Shown piece after piece: positions 7,988-11,845 of a stretch of 64,000 bases of DNA (the stretch's first letter is position 1; each line of letters begins with the position of its first letter). The position numbers were made by a program, and so were the translations under genes. The notes under the pieces were generated by a model. It was not told where the DNA came from, ran no database searches, and saw nothing but the letters and a program-made list of their open reading frames with translations. Source of the stretch: Armatimonadota bacterium (GTDB lineage Bacteria > Armatimonadota > Chthonomonadetes > Chthonomonadales > Chthonomonadaceae); contig JAGWMJ010000007.1 in NCBI GenBank assembly GCA_028871815.1, positions 62,001 to 126,000 on the forward strand, written 5' to 3'.

Positions 7988-8350
7988 ATGCCCTACCCGA
8001 TCATGGAGATCTTACGCCGCCTCATGCCGCGACGCCGGCGATCAACACGCATCGCCTTCGAGGAAGTCGGCGAGGCGTCGTCGATCCATATGGCGGAGCC
8101 ACCGGCGATAGACGGAGATTCCGAGCCGATCATCGTGGAGTGGCTGCCGCTGCCGGGCGCAGCGGTTTGCGCGGTAACGCGCGAACCGCTGAAACCCGGC
8201 GAGAGCGCAATGCGCTGTGCCGCGTGCGGGATGCTGTTCTCGGTAGATGGGTGGGCCTTCCTGGAGCGGAATGCCGGCGGCTGCTGCTGCGGATGCGGCG
8301 CCAACCAGCGGGCTGAACCGTGTACGATGGGTAGCCGCAACGATGCCTGA
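7988..8350 (+). CDS. RING-like (degenerate cross-brace) zinc protein of the ubiquitin-like operon
   Basis: This 120-residue protein is the first gene of the operon. It has an arginine-rich start, an acidic linker (about 25-50), and then a Cys-rich C-terminal domain: C61-AV-T64, C77-AA-C80, FSVDGW (84-89) and GCCCGCG (C99-C101, C103). Spacing and the conserved Trp match bacterial RING/binuclear treble-clef fingers (CxxC, CxxC, HxxC-W, CxxC). Pairs 2 and 4 are complete, while pair 1 is C-x-x-T and pair 3 has lost His and Cys (S85, G88). One zinc site would remain. In eukaryotes RING proteins are E3 ligases that bring E2 to the target; the location beside E1 and E2 supports that role by inference. 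It overlaps the E1 start by 8 nt. Confidence 0.7.
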   Translation: MPYPIMEILRRLMPRRRRSTRIAFEEVGEASSIHMAEPPAIDGDSEPIIVEWLPLPGAAVCAVTREPLKPGESAMRCAACGMLFSVDGWAFLERNAGGCCCGCGANQRAEPCTMGSRNDA

Positions 8351-9491
8351 ACGCACGGACTTGTACCATCGACAGCGGCGAATCCCAGGCTGGCGACAGG
8401 CGCGCCTTGCCGGTGCCCGCGTTCTGGTAGCAGGAGCCGGCGCTACCGGAAACGAAGTGCTGCGACTGCTGGCTCGTTCCGGCGTGGGGCACATCGCCGT
8501 TGTTGATTTTGATCAGGTTGAGCGCTCGAACCTGTCACGGACATCGCTCTTCGACGAATGCGACGTTGGCGCCAACAAGGCCAAAGCAGCCGTGGCGGCA
8601 TTGCTCAAAATCCATCCGGAACTGTTGGCGACAGCCTTCGCTGGCCGGTTGCAGACATCCGTGGGCGCCGGTACGCTTCGCGCCATGGATATCGCTGTGG
8701 GCTGCCTGGATAGCGTGGAGGCGCGGCTTGCTCTGAATCGCATGTGCCGGGCAGCCGGAACGCCGTGGGTCGACGTGGGAATAGAGGCCGATGCGGCGGC
8801 GGTAACTCTTTTTGGTGGCCGGAGTGGCGCGTGTTACGAGTGCGAAATGACGGAGGAGATGTGGCAAGCGCGGAGCCGACGCCACTCGTGTACCGGCGCA
8901 CCGGTGCGTGCCGCCGATGCTCCTGCCGGCGTCTCTATTACAATGGCAGCCCTGGCCGGAGCAATTGCAGCACATGAAGTCCTGTGGATGCTGATGACAC
9001 CACGCGCAAAGCAGGCAGCGCGCTGTGGGCGACGGATTATGGTAAGCGCCAACGGATGGCATATGGATACCACCAAACCGGCACAGAATCCACAGTGCAA
9101 TGCCCATGAATTGGCAGCTCCCATCGCGGCCACACCGCCCGGTGCCCAGGAATGGACAACTGCCGAGTTGCTGACTTTTTTTGGCTGCCCCGATGGTTCG
9201 GTGGAGTTGCCCCATGACGCCCTGATGGGCTGGCGGTGTACGGAATGTGGCTACCTGCGGACTGAGATTGGCGCGTTGGAAGCAATTCGACCTTCCAGGC
9301 TGAAGTGCCGATGCGGCTCACGCCAGCTTCAGCTTGACGTATCCAGCACCATCGAGAGCGGCGAGCCGGAGGCTGATATCGCACTACATCGGCTCGGCGT
9401 GCCGGAGGGAGGGCTTTTACGTCTACGCTGCGGCCGGCGCAGGTTTTATGCCGAGCTCGGTGGCCCGTTTCAGTTCGGTACGGAGGGCTGA
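8343..9491 (+). CDS. E1-like (ThiF/UBA superfamily) ubiquitin-like activating enzyme with C-terminal zinc ribbon
   Basis: This 382-residue enzyme is predicted to adenylate the C-terminal Gly of the Ubl encoded next door and transfer it to the E2. The Rossmann adenylation domain shows GAGATG (31-36), D55-x-D57, the E60-R-S-N-L-S-R66 motif, K79/K81 and D123. A structural zinc site is C164-xx-C167 with C252-xx-H255. C183 in HSCTGAP, just before the crossover helix SITMAALAGAIAAHE, is the likely thioester Cys. An extra domain (about 265-382) has C299-xx-C302 and C322-x-C324, a zinc ribbon not found in MoeB or ThiF. ATG 8343 is chosen because it overlaps the preceding stop (ATGCCTGA). Confidence 0.9.
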   Translation: MPERTDLYHRQRRIPGWRQARLAGARVLVAGAGATGNEVLRLLARSGVGHIAVVDFDQVERSNLSRTSLFDECDVGANKAKAAVAALLKIHPELLATAFAGRLQTSVGAGTLRAMDIAVGCLDSVEARLALNRMCRAAGTPWVDVGIEADAAAVTLFGGRSGACYECEMTEEMWQARSRRHSCTGAPVRAADAPAGVSITMAALAGAIAAHEVLWMLMTPRAKQAARCGRRIMVSANGWHMDTTKPAQNPQCNAHELAAPIAATPPGAQEWTTAELLTFFGCPDGSVELPHDALMGWRCTECGYLRTEIGALEAIRPSRLKCRCGSRQLQLDVSSTIESGEPEADIALHRLGVPEGGLLRLRCGRRRFYAELGGPFQFGTEG

Positions 9492-9497
9492 CCAACT

Positions 9498-9755
9498 ATG
9501 GCGGAGCGAACCGTTTCGATAACGCTGCAGACCGCGGATCGCACCCGCATGGCGCGTCTGACCGTGCCGCGTGACATGCGCGTTTCCGACGTGATCAAAA
9601 CGGCTCTGCGGCGCTGGTCGCTGCGATTGGGCGTTCACTACCAGGTAGCGAACCTCACCACCGGCAGACAGCTTCTCGGGCAAGACCGCCTGGATGGCGA
9701 GCTGGTTAACGACAACGACGTTCTGGTACTGCAGCCGATGCCCACCCACGGGTAA
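9498..9755 (+). CDS. Ubiquitin-like beta-grasp protein ending in Gly
   Basis: This 85-residue protein has a beta-grasp pattern: strand VSITLQT, strand ARLTVPRDMRVSDVIKTALRRW leading into the helix, VHYQVANLTTGRQLLGQDRL, and the last strand DNDVLVLQPM. It finishes with the exposed tail PTHG, whose terminal Gly is immediately before the stop, as needed for adenylation without processing. It resembles YukD/EsaB-type ubiquitin folds more than ThiS or MoaD. K34 is its only lysine. A GGAGGG ribosome site lies 10 nt upstream, and E1 ends 6 nt before the start. It is predicted to be the modifier conjugated by the neighbouring E1, E2 and RING-like proteins. Confidence 0.87.
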   Translation: MAERTVSITLQTADRTRMARLTVPRDMRVSDVIKTALRRWSLRLGVHYQVANLTTGRQLLGQDRLDGELVNDNDVLVLQPMPTHG

Positions 9756-9768
9756 CATCTGTAGTGAT

Positions 9769-10326
9769 ATGCTCTCCGCACGTGAACGCCGGCTGCGCAA
9801 CGACTACATCAGCGTAGTGAGGCTGGCGCGCGCCAGCCGCGGGAGTTTGATTGTAGAGAGCACGCGCGGCAACCCGCCGCACGAGTACGTGCTGGCCTAC
9901 CAGTGTCGCGGCATTGAGCGTTTGGAGCGCGAGCGCCCGATATACCGCTTGCACCACCGCGTTCACGTGCGACTACCGGCGCGGTACCCGGCTCCATCCG
10001 GCGCACCACACGTTCGGATGATGACGCCACTTTTCCATCCGCATGTCTATCCAAACTCGGATGTGTGCATGGGCGGATGGCAAACTACCGAGTTTCTCGA
10101 TGACTTTGTGCTGCGCATCGGCGCCCTGCTCCAGTACGACCGGCGATATCTGAACGTCCTGGATCCCGCGAATGAGACGGCTGTTGCCTGGGCGCATCAC
10201 AATCTGGCGCTGCTTCCAACCGACATTCAGATGTTTGGTGCGGGGCCGGCGCCACCGGAAGCCACGGATGACGCGCCACAAGAGGCGGTCCGCGGCGACA
10301 CGGTATTCTGGATGGAATCGACTTGA
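9769..10326 (+). CDS. E2-like (UBC fold) ubiquitin-conjugating enzyme
   Basis: This 185-residue protein has a clear UBC fold. The core is RVHVRLPARYPAPSGAPHVR, then the HPN-like segment FHPHVYPNSDVCMGGW with catalytic C100 and H90, then the helix LRIGALLQYD and LNVLDPANETAVAW, which matches the DPxN-xxA hallmark of eukaryotic E2s. The HPN Asn is replaced by His (HPH). A C-terminal tail of about 35 residues ends in VFWMEST. The protein contains no lysine at all. The start is ATG 9769, 13 nt after the Ubl stop. Its stop overlaps the JAB start (TTGA). It is predicted to accept the Ubl thioester from E1. Confidence 0.92.
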   Translation: MLSARERRLRNDYISVVRLARASRGSLIVESTRGNPPHEYVLAYQCRGIERLERERPIYRLHHRVHVRLPARYPAPSGAPHVRMMTPLFHPHVYPNSDVCMGGWQTTEFLDDFVLRIGALLQYDRRYLNVLDPANETAVAWAHHNLALLPTDIQMFGAGPAPPEATDDAPQEAVRGDTVFWMEST

Positions 10327-10925
10327 TAGCCCATCGGGAAGGCGACATTGAATGGCAGGAAGCGGATGACGCATACCGACCAAGGCACACAGAGACGCGC
10401 CGGGTGCTGGAAGGCTTGCTCGGCGCCGGGGCGCTACGGTTCCGACCGGGCCGCGATGTGGTGGTGCTGCAGCACGCGGCATGGATCGATCTCCGACGGC
10501 ATCTGGCAGCCAAGCTGCAGGTTGAGCAGGGCGGGCTCCTGATCGGTCGGGCATTTTCAGATTCGCTGCATGGCGGCTGGCTGGTGGTGGTAGATGAAGC
10601 GCTGCCGGCCGAGGAAGCCGAGGAGACGCTGGTCTCGGTGGAGTGGACGCCGAAATCGTGGGAGAAGATGCTCCCGCGCTTGAAGACAATGACTGCCGAA
10701 ACCACCATCGTAGGCAGCTACCATTCGCATCCGGGACATGGGGTCTATCTTTCCGAACTGGACCTCGAGACGCAGCGTGGACTCTTCCCGGAACCGTGGC
10801 AAATTGCGCTGGTGGTAGACCCGGTTCGCGATGAGGGCGGCGTGTTTCTGGGTGAGCAGGGCAAGCGGTGCCCGGACTGGTGCGTAGCCTGCCGGCCCGA
10901 CACGAAGGCGGAGAAGAGCAGATGA
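10323..10925 (+). CDS. JAMM/JAB metallopeptidase (deubiquitinase-like)
   Basis: This 200-residue zinc isopeptidase is of the Rpn11/AMSH type. The JAMM residues are complete: E68 (QVEQGGLLIG), H134 and H136 in SYHSHPG, S144 and D147 in LSELD. The following strand (WQIALVVDP) is also typical. An N-terminal extension of about 45 residues and a Cys-rich tail (C183, C187, C190) are extra. It is predicted to remove the Ubl from targets. The TTG start is set by a 4-nt overlap with the E2 stop, and the gene ends in an ATGA overlap with the exported protein. Confidence 0.92.
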   Translation: MIAHREGDIEWQEADDAYRPRHTETRRVLEGLLGAGALRFRPGRDVVVLQHAAWIDLRRHLAAKLQVEQGGLLIGRAFSDSLHGGWLVVVDEALPAEEAEETLVSVEWTPKSWEKMLPRLKTMTAETTIVGSYHSHPGHGVYLSELDLETQRGLFPEPWQIALVVDPVRDEGGVFLGEQGKRCPDWCVACRPDTKAEKSR

Positions 10926-11845
10926 TACGACAACCGGCGAAGCGCTGGCTGTTGGGAGCGGTCGGGCTTGCCGCGGCGGCAGGCCAGTTTGGCTGTGCAC
11001 GGATGCCGCCGGGCAGCAGCTCGCTCTCCGGCGTGCAGTTGAGGGTCACGGTAACATACGCAGGGCCGATGAGCAGCGCAAACTACTACTTCTTCTTGCT
11101 GAACGACGCGAAGAACGTCGCGCAGCTAACCGCTCCTGGACCGGTACCGGTGGTGGGCCCACCGCCGGCCAGCGGACTGCCGAGTAACGGATTTGCCACC
11201 GAGTCCGGTTCCGATACCAACGGCAAGGCGCTGGGAGGATTCACCGATCTCGTGCTCTTTACCAATCCGGCGAATCAGTTTGGACCGTCGCAGAGCAGCA
11301 TCGCCCTCTATCACGTACCCAACCAGCAGTCGGCCGACTCACCTCCACAGAGCTTCCAGCCAAATGGCCTGCCGATCGCCTTTACCCCACCGGGATCGAA
11401 TCAGGATAGCGCCGGTGTCGGCTCGCCCTATACGCTTCAGTTCACCATCGACCTGGCTCAGTTGATTCTGGATGACACCGGCCGCCCCCTGGCCGACGCA
11501 GCGCAGGCCGATGCGGCCGCCAGGAGCATCCAGTTTCTGCAGCTCAATCTGATCAGCACCAACCTGGTGGCTACCGACCTGGCGACGCAGGTCAACAAAC
11601 AGACCGACTCAATGGGAAATACCTCCGATGGCCGTGGCGCCTTCCTCACGATTCCAATCTCGGTCAACGGCGCCATACAGCCGGCGACATACAGCGACAC
11701 GATGAACGGCGGGGTTTCGCAGTTCGGCCAGCAGATTGCCGAACCAGAAGGCGACGTGTTTGTGTTTCAGCCCAATGGCAGCCAGGTTGATCCCTCGCTG
11801 GATATGCTGCACTGGACGGTTGAGGTGCTCAACAACAAACCGTAG
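10922..11845 (+). CDS. Exported protein of unknown function, last gene of the ubiquitin-like operon
   Basis: This 307-residue protein has a basic start (MIRQPAKRW) and a hydrophobic core ending at FGC25, so it is either a lipoprotein with an atypical lipobox (QFG-C) or a secreted protein. The mature part is rich in Ser, Pro, Gln and Asn and looks beta-rich (VQLRVTVTYAGPMSSANYYFFLLND; LHWTVEVLNNKP). I recognise no domain. Its ATG overlaps the JAB stop (ATGA), so it is translated with a cytosolic system although it must leave the cytoplasm. It may be the target, or it may simply share the transcript. Confidence 0.8.
   Translation: MIRQPAKRWLLGAVGLAAAAGQFGCARMPPGSSSLSGVQLRVTVTYAGPMSSANYYFFLLNDAKNVAQLTAPGPVPVVGPPPASGLPSNGFATESGSDTNGKALGGFTDLVLFTNPANQFGPSQSSIALYHVPNQQSADSPPQSFQPNGLPIAFTPPGSNQDSAGVGSPYTLQFTIDLAQLILDDTGRPLADAAQADAAARSIQFLQLNLISTNLVATDLATQVNKQTDSMGNTSDGRGAFLTIPISVNGAIQPATYSDTMNGGVSQFGQQIAEPEGDVFVFQPNGSQVDPSLDMLHWTVEVLNNKP

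Follow-up and report, generated by a model that had tools for sequence, protein, structure and literature searches.

The window, a stretch of 64,000 nucleotides (nt) from the 3.68 Mb genome of an Armatimonadota bacterium (G000:C7:62001-126000), holds six open reading frames (ORFs) on the plus strand (7988-11845). The first five, lying head to tail at 7988-10925 and with intact motifs, encode a RING-like protein, an E1-like activating enzyme, a ubiquitin-like protein (Ubl), an E2 conjugating enzyme and a JAMM/JAB metalloprotease; the sixth encodes a lipoprotein. An earlier note on this DNA had described six consecutive, tightly joined genes, and this holds: the RING-like and E1 genes overlap by 8 nt (E1 ATG at 8343), 6 nt separate E1 from Ubl and 13 nt Ubl from E2 (ATG at 9769), and overlaps of 4 nt join E2 to JAMM (start codon TTG, 10323) and JAMM to the lipoprotein gene. 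The same note had read a full gene set for Ubl conjugation and deconjugation, a reading in line with Pfam, profile searches, the predicted Ubl fold and the invariance of catalytic residues among relatives. All features given below lie on the plus strand, and "family" denotes the bacterial family to which the host belongs.

The E1 (382 aa, 8343..9491) contains a single ThiF domain (Pfam, 1.1e-44). Its closest matches among solved structures, as searched by profile, are UBA7, UBA1, SAE2 and UBA3 (1e-46 to 1e-36), MoeB being found at 3e-33. Cys183, set in an R-x-S-C motif, is invariant in the alignment of relatives, and so are C164, C167, C252 and H255; the former is likely the catalytic cysteine, the latter four likely zinc ligands. 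A scan of genome contigs returned distant E1s only.

The Ubl (85 aa, 9498..9755) is a single domain with a pI of 10.6, ending in Thr-His-Gly. AlphaFold2 (AF2), run from the single sequence, predicts a YukD/SUMO-like beta-grasp (pLDDT 83, pTM 0.71). The top Foldseek match is an ESX-3 YukD-type domain, followed by a proteasome-midnolin entry and SUMO-2/3, with archaeal ubiquitin and the bacterial Ubl of an E1-E2-Ubl complex at lower ranks. Searched alone, the window Ubl has no match in Pfam and spurious matches only in the PDB; Pfam YukD is matched by 5 of 7 family homologues (best 9.5e-5, below the curated cut-off). The matches of the relatives and Foldseek bear out the single-domain, YukD-like Ubl proposed earlier.

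The E2 (UBC fold, 185 aa, 9769..10326) matches UQ_con above the Pfam cut-off (2.5e-6), and UBC9 and UBC13 are its best profile matches among solved structures (2e-11 to 7e-11). It carries an HPH motif, a DPAN block and a variable C-terminal tail; Cys100, at the catalytic position, is invariant in 11 aligned E2s. The JAMM protein (200 aa, 10323..10925) is matched by Prok-JAB (Pfam, 7e-9) and, by profile, by the solved structure of RPN11 (4e-22). Its motif is made up by E68, H134xH136P and S144xxD147, with E68, H134, H136, S144 and D147 invariant in relatives.

The RING-like protein (120 aa, 7988..8350) has no match when searched alone against Pfam. It aligns by profile to Prok-RING_1-type fingers of related loci (probability 93.7, E 1.9e-7), and its Cys/Trp pattern is conserved in relatives. 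The finger is a treble clef with one zinc site (C61; C77/C80; C100/C101/C103): the site formed by C77/C80/C100-103 is kept, C61 is all that is left of the first site, and there is no full two-zinc RING. The N-terminal stretch is basic and helix-like. RING relatives of g4 and g7 feature an N-terminal CxC..CxH region which resembles SWIM (Pfam E 0.024, below cut-off) and is missing from the RING-like proteins of the window and of genome G005.

Distribution, linkage and selection

Components were monitored among the family by an E2 search of 61 genomes and by separate Ubl, E1, JAMM and RING searches. Seven further family members were found to hold close E2 relatives. Of 17 family genomes, the same 8 contain all five components (G000, G003, G005, G006, G009, G012, G013 and G015; G009 is counted although its RING gene lies beyond the contig end). 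Eight genomes lack every component, and G016 (64% complete) has the E1 alone. The cassette is one operon in g1 and g7, and also in g10 up to where the contig stops. Components are spread over two to three loci in four genomes. In g4, Ubl-E2, E1, and the divergent RING and JAMM genes lie at three separate places, and in G005 the cassette is split into E2-JAMM, RING-E1 and Ubl. That the components occur jointly even when unlinked argues strongly for a single functional unit. The order RING-E1-Ubl-E2-JAMM is found again in another family of the phylum (f14, L168).

Within the genus g4, ratios of nonsynonymous to synonymous substitution (dN/dS), which are rough because dS is high, are 0.016-0.048 for Ubl, 0.017-0.056 for E2, 0.047-0.067 for E1, 0.08-0.14 for RING and JAMM, and 0.15 for lnt. 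As judged from these ratios, the core cassette is under strong purifying selection. Identities of ~30-60% in other genera and dN/dS values of 0.02-0.14 within one genus argue that the cassette genes are not a product of chance.

Larger loci with multiple JAB, E2 and RING genes reside in the same phylum (L024, L025, L152-L171). They feature homologous E1, E2, JAMM and Ubl, and the short motif described below recurs in them, but they differ from the compact cassette: they include a trypsin-like membrane protease, an FHA protein, Prok-RING_1 proteins, one or two E2s with HPN, and two or three JABs, of which one bears LysM, and their Ubl ends in ITAG. HPH or NPH replaces HPN before the catalytic cysteine in 9 of 9 compact-cassette E2s; HPN is present in the E2 of Crinalium and in those of the larger loci, save for a single larger-locus E2 that did not show the pattern. 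The Ubl ends vary as well. His-Gly is present in 8 of 8 family Ubls, three of which bear a short tail beyond it (ANTGTNVI, GG, TNEPSS), and larger-locus Ubls end in EITAG, several with tails such as RVVV or RGIAP. Tails placed after a conserved glycine in several Ubls fit trimming to Gly by the JAMM protein.

A short motif shared by the cassette proteins

Candidate Ubl-binding motifs were found in the RING-like, E2 and JAMM proteins. The JAMM N-terminus carries DIEWQEADDAYRP (residues 8-20, 10344..10382), and the pattern [IV]xWx[ED]x5[RV]P is present in 8 of 8 family JAMMs. The E2 C-terminus carries VFWME (residues 179-183, 10303..10317); a Trp in a hydrophobic/acidic setting lies near the C-terminus in 8 of 8 family E2s and in f14. 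RIAFEE, in the RING-like protein (residues 21-26, 8048..8065), corresponds to SEIEF, DADIEF and EVVF of relatives; a second stretch read in the same protein, IIVEW (residues 48-52, 8129..8143), is not conserved as such. In the larger loci an acidic-hydrophobic stretch marks the termini of many non-Ubl components, as in DLSDIDITL (protease C-terminus), DIEIELM (E2 C-terminus) and LDVDLEEDRY (ahead of the E1 domain).

The motif was counted in 54 of 138 operon-range genes and 11 of 262 control genes, with regular expressions chosen after examples had been seen and control ORFs which include unreal genes; shuffled ends gave 6.4 +- 2.3 (maximum 14, 300 shuffles). The form typical of the window family, hydrophobic-x-W/F, occurs in 21 of 23 RING, JAMM and E2 tails, against 9.3 +- 2.2 after shuffling (maximum 17, 1000 shuffles). 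The JAMM copy of Crinalium, LQWRDSEDVYKP, matches IEWQEADDAYRP of the window. Ten LxWRD-type copies are found in 5 proteins encoded by the Crinalium epipsammum plasmid pCRI9333.03 (the E2, the JAMM, a type IV secretion system (T4SS) coupling protein and two hypothetical proteins), and none in the other 14 coding sequences; about 0.4 are expected from shuffles of the five carriers. In the Crinalium plasmid sequence NC_019754.1 (L195, 8421-8998), two tandem Ubl genes with the ends GGY and VEVS adjoin the E2, JAB and T4SS coupling protein genes bearing LxWRD. The trypsin-like proteases of L024, L025 and L152-L171, which have a likely membrane helix, share a DxDI[TDE]L tail with the E2 and JAB of the locus; as the same tail is found on these proteins, that of the protease is probably cytosolic.

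Similar motifs lie in flexible extensions of SUMO E1 and SUMO proteases, and no known prokaryotic system has a groove for SUMO-interacting motifs (SIMs) according to a 2025 review (PMC12687455). SIMs, as the LIR and UFIM motifs, are short hydrophobic strands, frequently flanked by acidic residues, that lie in flexible tails of E1, protease and effectors. A hydrophobic core with an acidic flank, in tails of pathway proteins, is what was found here. The SIM binds in the beta2-alpha1 groove of its Ubl; the bacterial motif is a candidate for such binding. Since SUMO E1 and proteases bear like motifs and the family Ubls are mostly basic (pI 7.9-10.6), the motif tails probably dock RING, E2 and JAMM on the Ubl in the fashion of SIMs.

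A broader reading, which we hold tentatively and with slightly more doubt than confidence, is that of a prokaryotic counterpart of the SUMO/SIM pair: a hydrophobic-x-W/hydrophobic motif with an acidic or Arg-Asp flank would be read by a YukD/SUMO-like Ubl, conjugated in compact cassettes by the HPH E2, possibly to N-termini. The putative carriers would be E2, JAMM, RING, E1, the trypsin-like membrane protease, FHA and plasmid proteins. That a Ubl is read non-covalently by a linear motif is held to be a hallmark of SUMO, without prokaryotic precedent. If the binding were true, a SUMO-binding-type motif would be new for bacteria, the reading of a Ubl tag by linear motifs would either predate eukaryotes or have arisen twice, and motif searches would point to receptors and clients.

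Known systems and the proposed role

Burroughs, Iyer and Aravind reportedly predicted, in 2011, bacterial RING/E1/E2/JAB systems with YukD-like Ubls, the RING finger being proposed as E3 ligase. The prediction builds on an earlier basis (Iyer 2006, PMC1779556). The component set, the YukD-like Ubl and the vicinity of E1, E2, JAB and Ubl genes are common to those systems and the window. From the 2011 systems, as reported, the cassette would be set apart by the compact five-gene order, the HPH E2, the one-zinc RING (SWIM-linked in relatives), the His-Gly end and the shared short motifs. Judging from its genes, the cassette is a variant of the predicted kind, which differs in E2 signature, reduced RING and candidate docking motif. 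The distinct subtype suggested by the earlier note survives in part: the five-gene order, present in two families of the phylum, the HPH E2 and the reduced RING speak for it, but the exported last gene, which had been listed among its marks, is not a component.

BilABCD, as the window, has Ubl, E1, E2 and JAMM in one operon. In Bil the Ubl is tandem and ISG15-like, and the E1 has one inactive and one active adenylation domain (PMC11354881), whereas the window Ubl is one domain and the window E1 one ThiF domain. Cap2 of CBASS, the anti-phage signalling system, is an E2-E1 fusion; E1 and E2 are separate genes in the window, and PADLOC models match the E1 in its adenylation domain only. A Bil, CBASS or other E1-E2 fusion type was rejected on architecture. 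The Caldiarchaeum ubiquitin operon (E1, E2, small RING and an RPN11 homologue) is similar in components and JAMM, but differs from the window, where the Ubl is YukD/SUMO-like with a His-Gly end and the RING has one zinc site.

HPH is described as a feature of the UBE2W family alone (PMC4630614), and UBE2W is the sole E2 known to modify N-termini (PMC9527308). Among human E2s UBE2W alone shares with the window E2 the HPH before the catalytic cysteine (HPHVYPNSDVC); the two are not close sequence relatives, profiles favouring UBC9 and UBC13. Because HPH is the UBE2W hallmark, the E2 may prefer the N-termini of proteins, or non-standard amino groups of another sort, as acceptors. N-terminal transfer by the HPH E2 is a prediction drawn from this analogy, and a precise one as to acceptor chemistry.

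A self-contained, five-gene cassette for Ubl conjugation and deconjugation, with UBE2W-like acceptors, docking by motif, a membrane site and a constitutive role, is the account which we regard as fairly likely. From gene content, motifs, E1, E2 and JAMM family membership, the predicted Ubl fold, co-occurrence and selection we infer the following course. The Ubl would be translated with its C-terminal Gly already exposed, and the Ubls of relatives with short tails after the Gly would probably be trimmed by the JAMM protein. The E1 would adenylate the Ubl, take it onto Cys183 and pass it to Cys100 of the E2; with the assistance of the one-zinc RING-like protein, the Ubl would be transferred to amino groups of targets, from which the RPN11-like JAMM protein would remove it. 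Because hydrophobic stretches resembling membrane helices were read at the N-terminus of some related JAMMs and in the f14 RING, the system probably acts on the inner side of the membrane; a trypsin-like protease and a JAB with LysM are present in addition in the larger loci. With its eukaryote-like parts, a minimal set of E1, E2, RING, JAMM and Ubl, small enough to be rebuilt in vitro, would offer a handle on the origins of ubiquitin and SUMO pathways.

Several points weigh against this account. The RING-like protein is devoid of half of the RING ligands, and perhaps is not an E3. Residues 243-382 of the E1, within the C-terminal extension where the 2011 systems would have a UFD, stay at AF2 pLDDT < 50. 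The earlier note had held that relatives without the E2 cysteine or the Ubl glycine would speak against the system: the cysteine is invariant and the glycine is kept throughout the family, but both Ubls of f14, from an orthologous cassette, end in ...IYVAA, so that a C-terminal Gly is not universal. Homologous sequences in the motif counts are not independent, the host's family follows the pattern only loosely, and in the larger loci, where the Ubl is acidic (pI 5.2), the argument from charge is weaker.

As a role, constitutive regulation of proteins or their quality control near the membrane is more likely than phage defence. Defence of the Bil or CBASS-Cap2 type, by modification of phage structural proteins or of a defence enzyme, is unlikely, though it would be in keeping with generic PADLOC matches (E1 to E1-E2 models, JAMM to JAB models), a patchy presence in the family, a relocatable cassette and the plasmid-borne relative in Crinalium. 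The cassette has no tandem Ubl, E1-E2 fusion or nucleotidyltransferase. PADLOC gave no match on ten neighbour genes; abhydrolase, Lnt (on the left flank), a short-chain dehydrogenase/reductase (SDR), DsbD and a glycosyltransferase are among the neighbours. A search for phage and viral relatives returned no phage match and one weak viral contig. The PADLOC-negative neighbours and the low dN/dS values (0.02-0.07 for Ubl, E2 and E1) make a context which favours housekeeping.

That the cassette tags proteins for proteolysis, feeding the resident 20S proteasome beside pupylation, is somewhat less likely still. In favour of such a role are the proteasome subunits and genes of the Pup-ligase family carried by 16 of 17 family genomes, the RPN11-like JAMM, and two relatives with an operon joining E1, E2, Ubl, JAB, a proteasomal-type AAA ATPase and Pup-ligase homologues. 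Yet the proteasome is as common in genomes without the cassette (the exception being the incomplete G016), and neither an ATPase nor a proteasome gene is part of the cassette. A sulfur-carrier or cofactor pathway of the ThiS/MoaD kind, to which the ThiF domain and Ubl ends in His-Gly (Ala-Ala in f14) rather than Gly-Gly might point, is very improbable given a dedicated E2 with an invariant cysteine, a RING-like protein, a JAMM, an E1 nearer to UBA7/UBA1 than to MoeB, and no sulfurtransferase in the cassette.

The sixth gene and related loci

The sixth gene (10922-11845), adjoining the JAMM gene, encodes a lipoprotein of unknown family, without match in Pfam. Sixteen of 17 family genomes have the gene, each once, and those devoid of any Ubl component are among them. 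It lies divergent from lnt in four relatives (L111, L112, L113 and L115) with no Ubl genes in between, and an abhydrolase gene follows lnt in three of the four, as in the window. It adjoins Ubl genes in no relative. As lnt and the lipoprotein gene flank the cassette in the window genome only, the lipoprotein is best seen as a resident neighbour. The earlier note had taken it for a coupled component, and the 4-nt overlap of JAMM stop and lipoprotein start might suggest that all six genes form one system; with a distribution independent of the Ubl genes and lnt as neighbour in relatives, the gene was rejected as a component, and one system of six genes is hardly credible. The vicinity of lnt in four relatives hints at a possible coupling of the lipoprotein to lipoprotein maturation.

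Other associations were noted in related loci. In L026 (G008:C18) and L027 (G013:C582) one operon encodes an FHA-like/RING protein, E1, E2, a protein of unknown family, Ubl (ending in VDAGRGAGG in L026) and JAB, along with a proteasomal-type AAA ATPase and two Pup-ligase (PafA/Dop) homologues; by its predicted products, this operon is a hybrid of ubiquitin-like and pupylation machinery. Three tandem Pup-ligase paralogues, additional to the canonical pair, reside in the host genome itself (G000:C14:9451-14123, L194), with no E1, E2 or JAB nearby. In a metagenome-assembled genome of Paludibacteraceae (L028, JAFOWX010000084.1), E1, Ubl (ending in PFPG) and E2 lie within a cluster resembling contractile injection and type VI secretion systems, which also features a TssF match and a DUF4280 protein.

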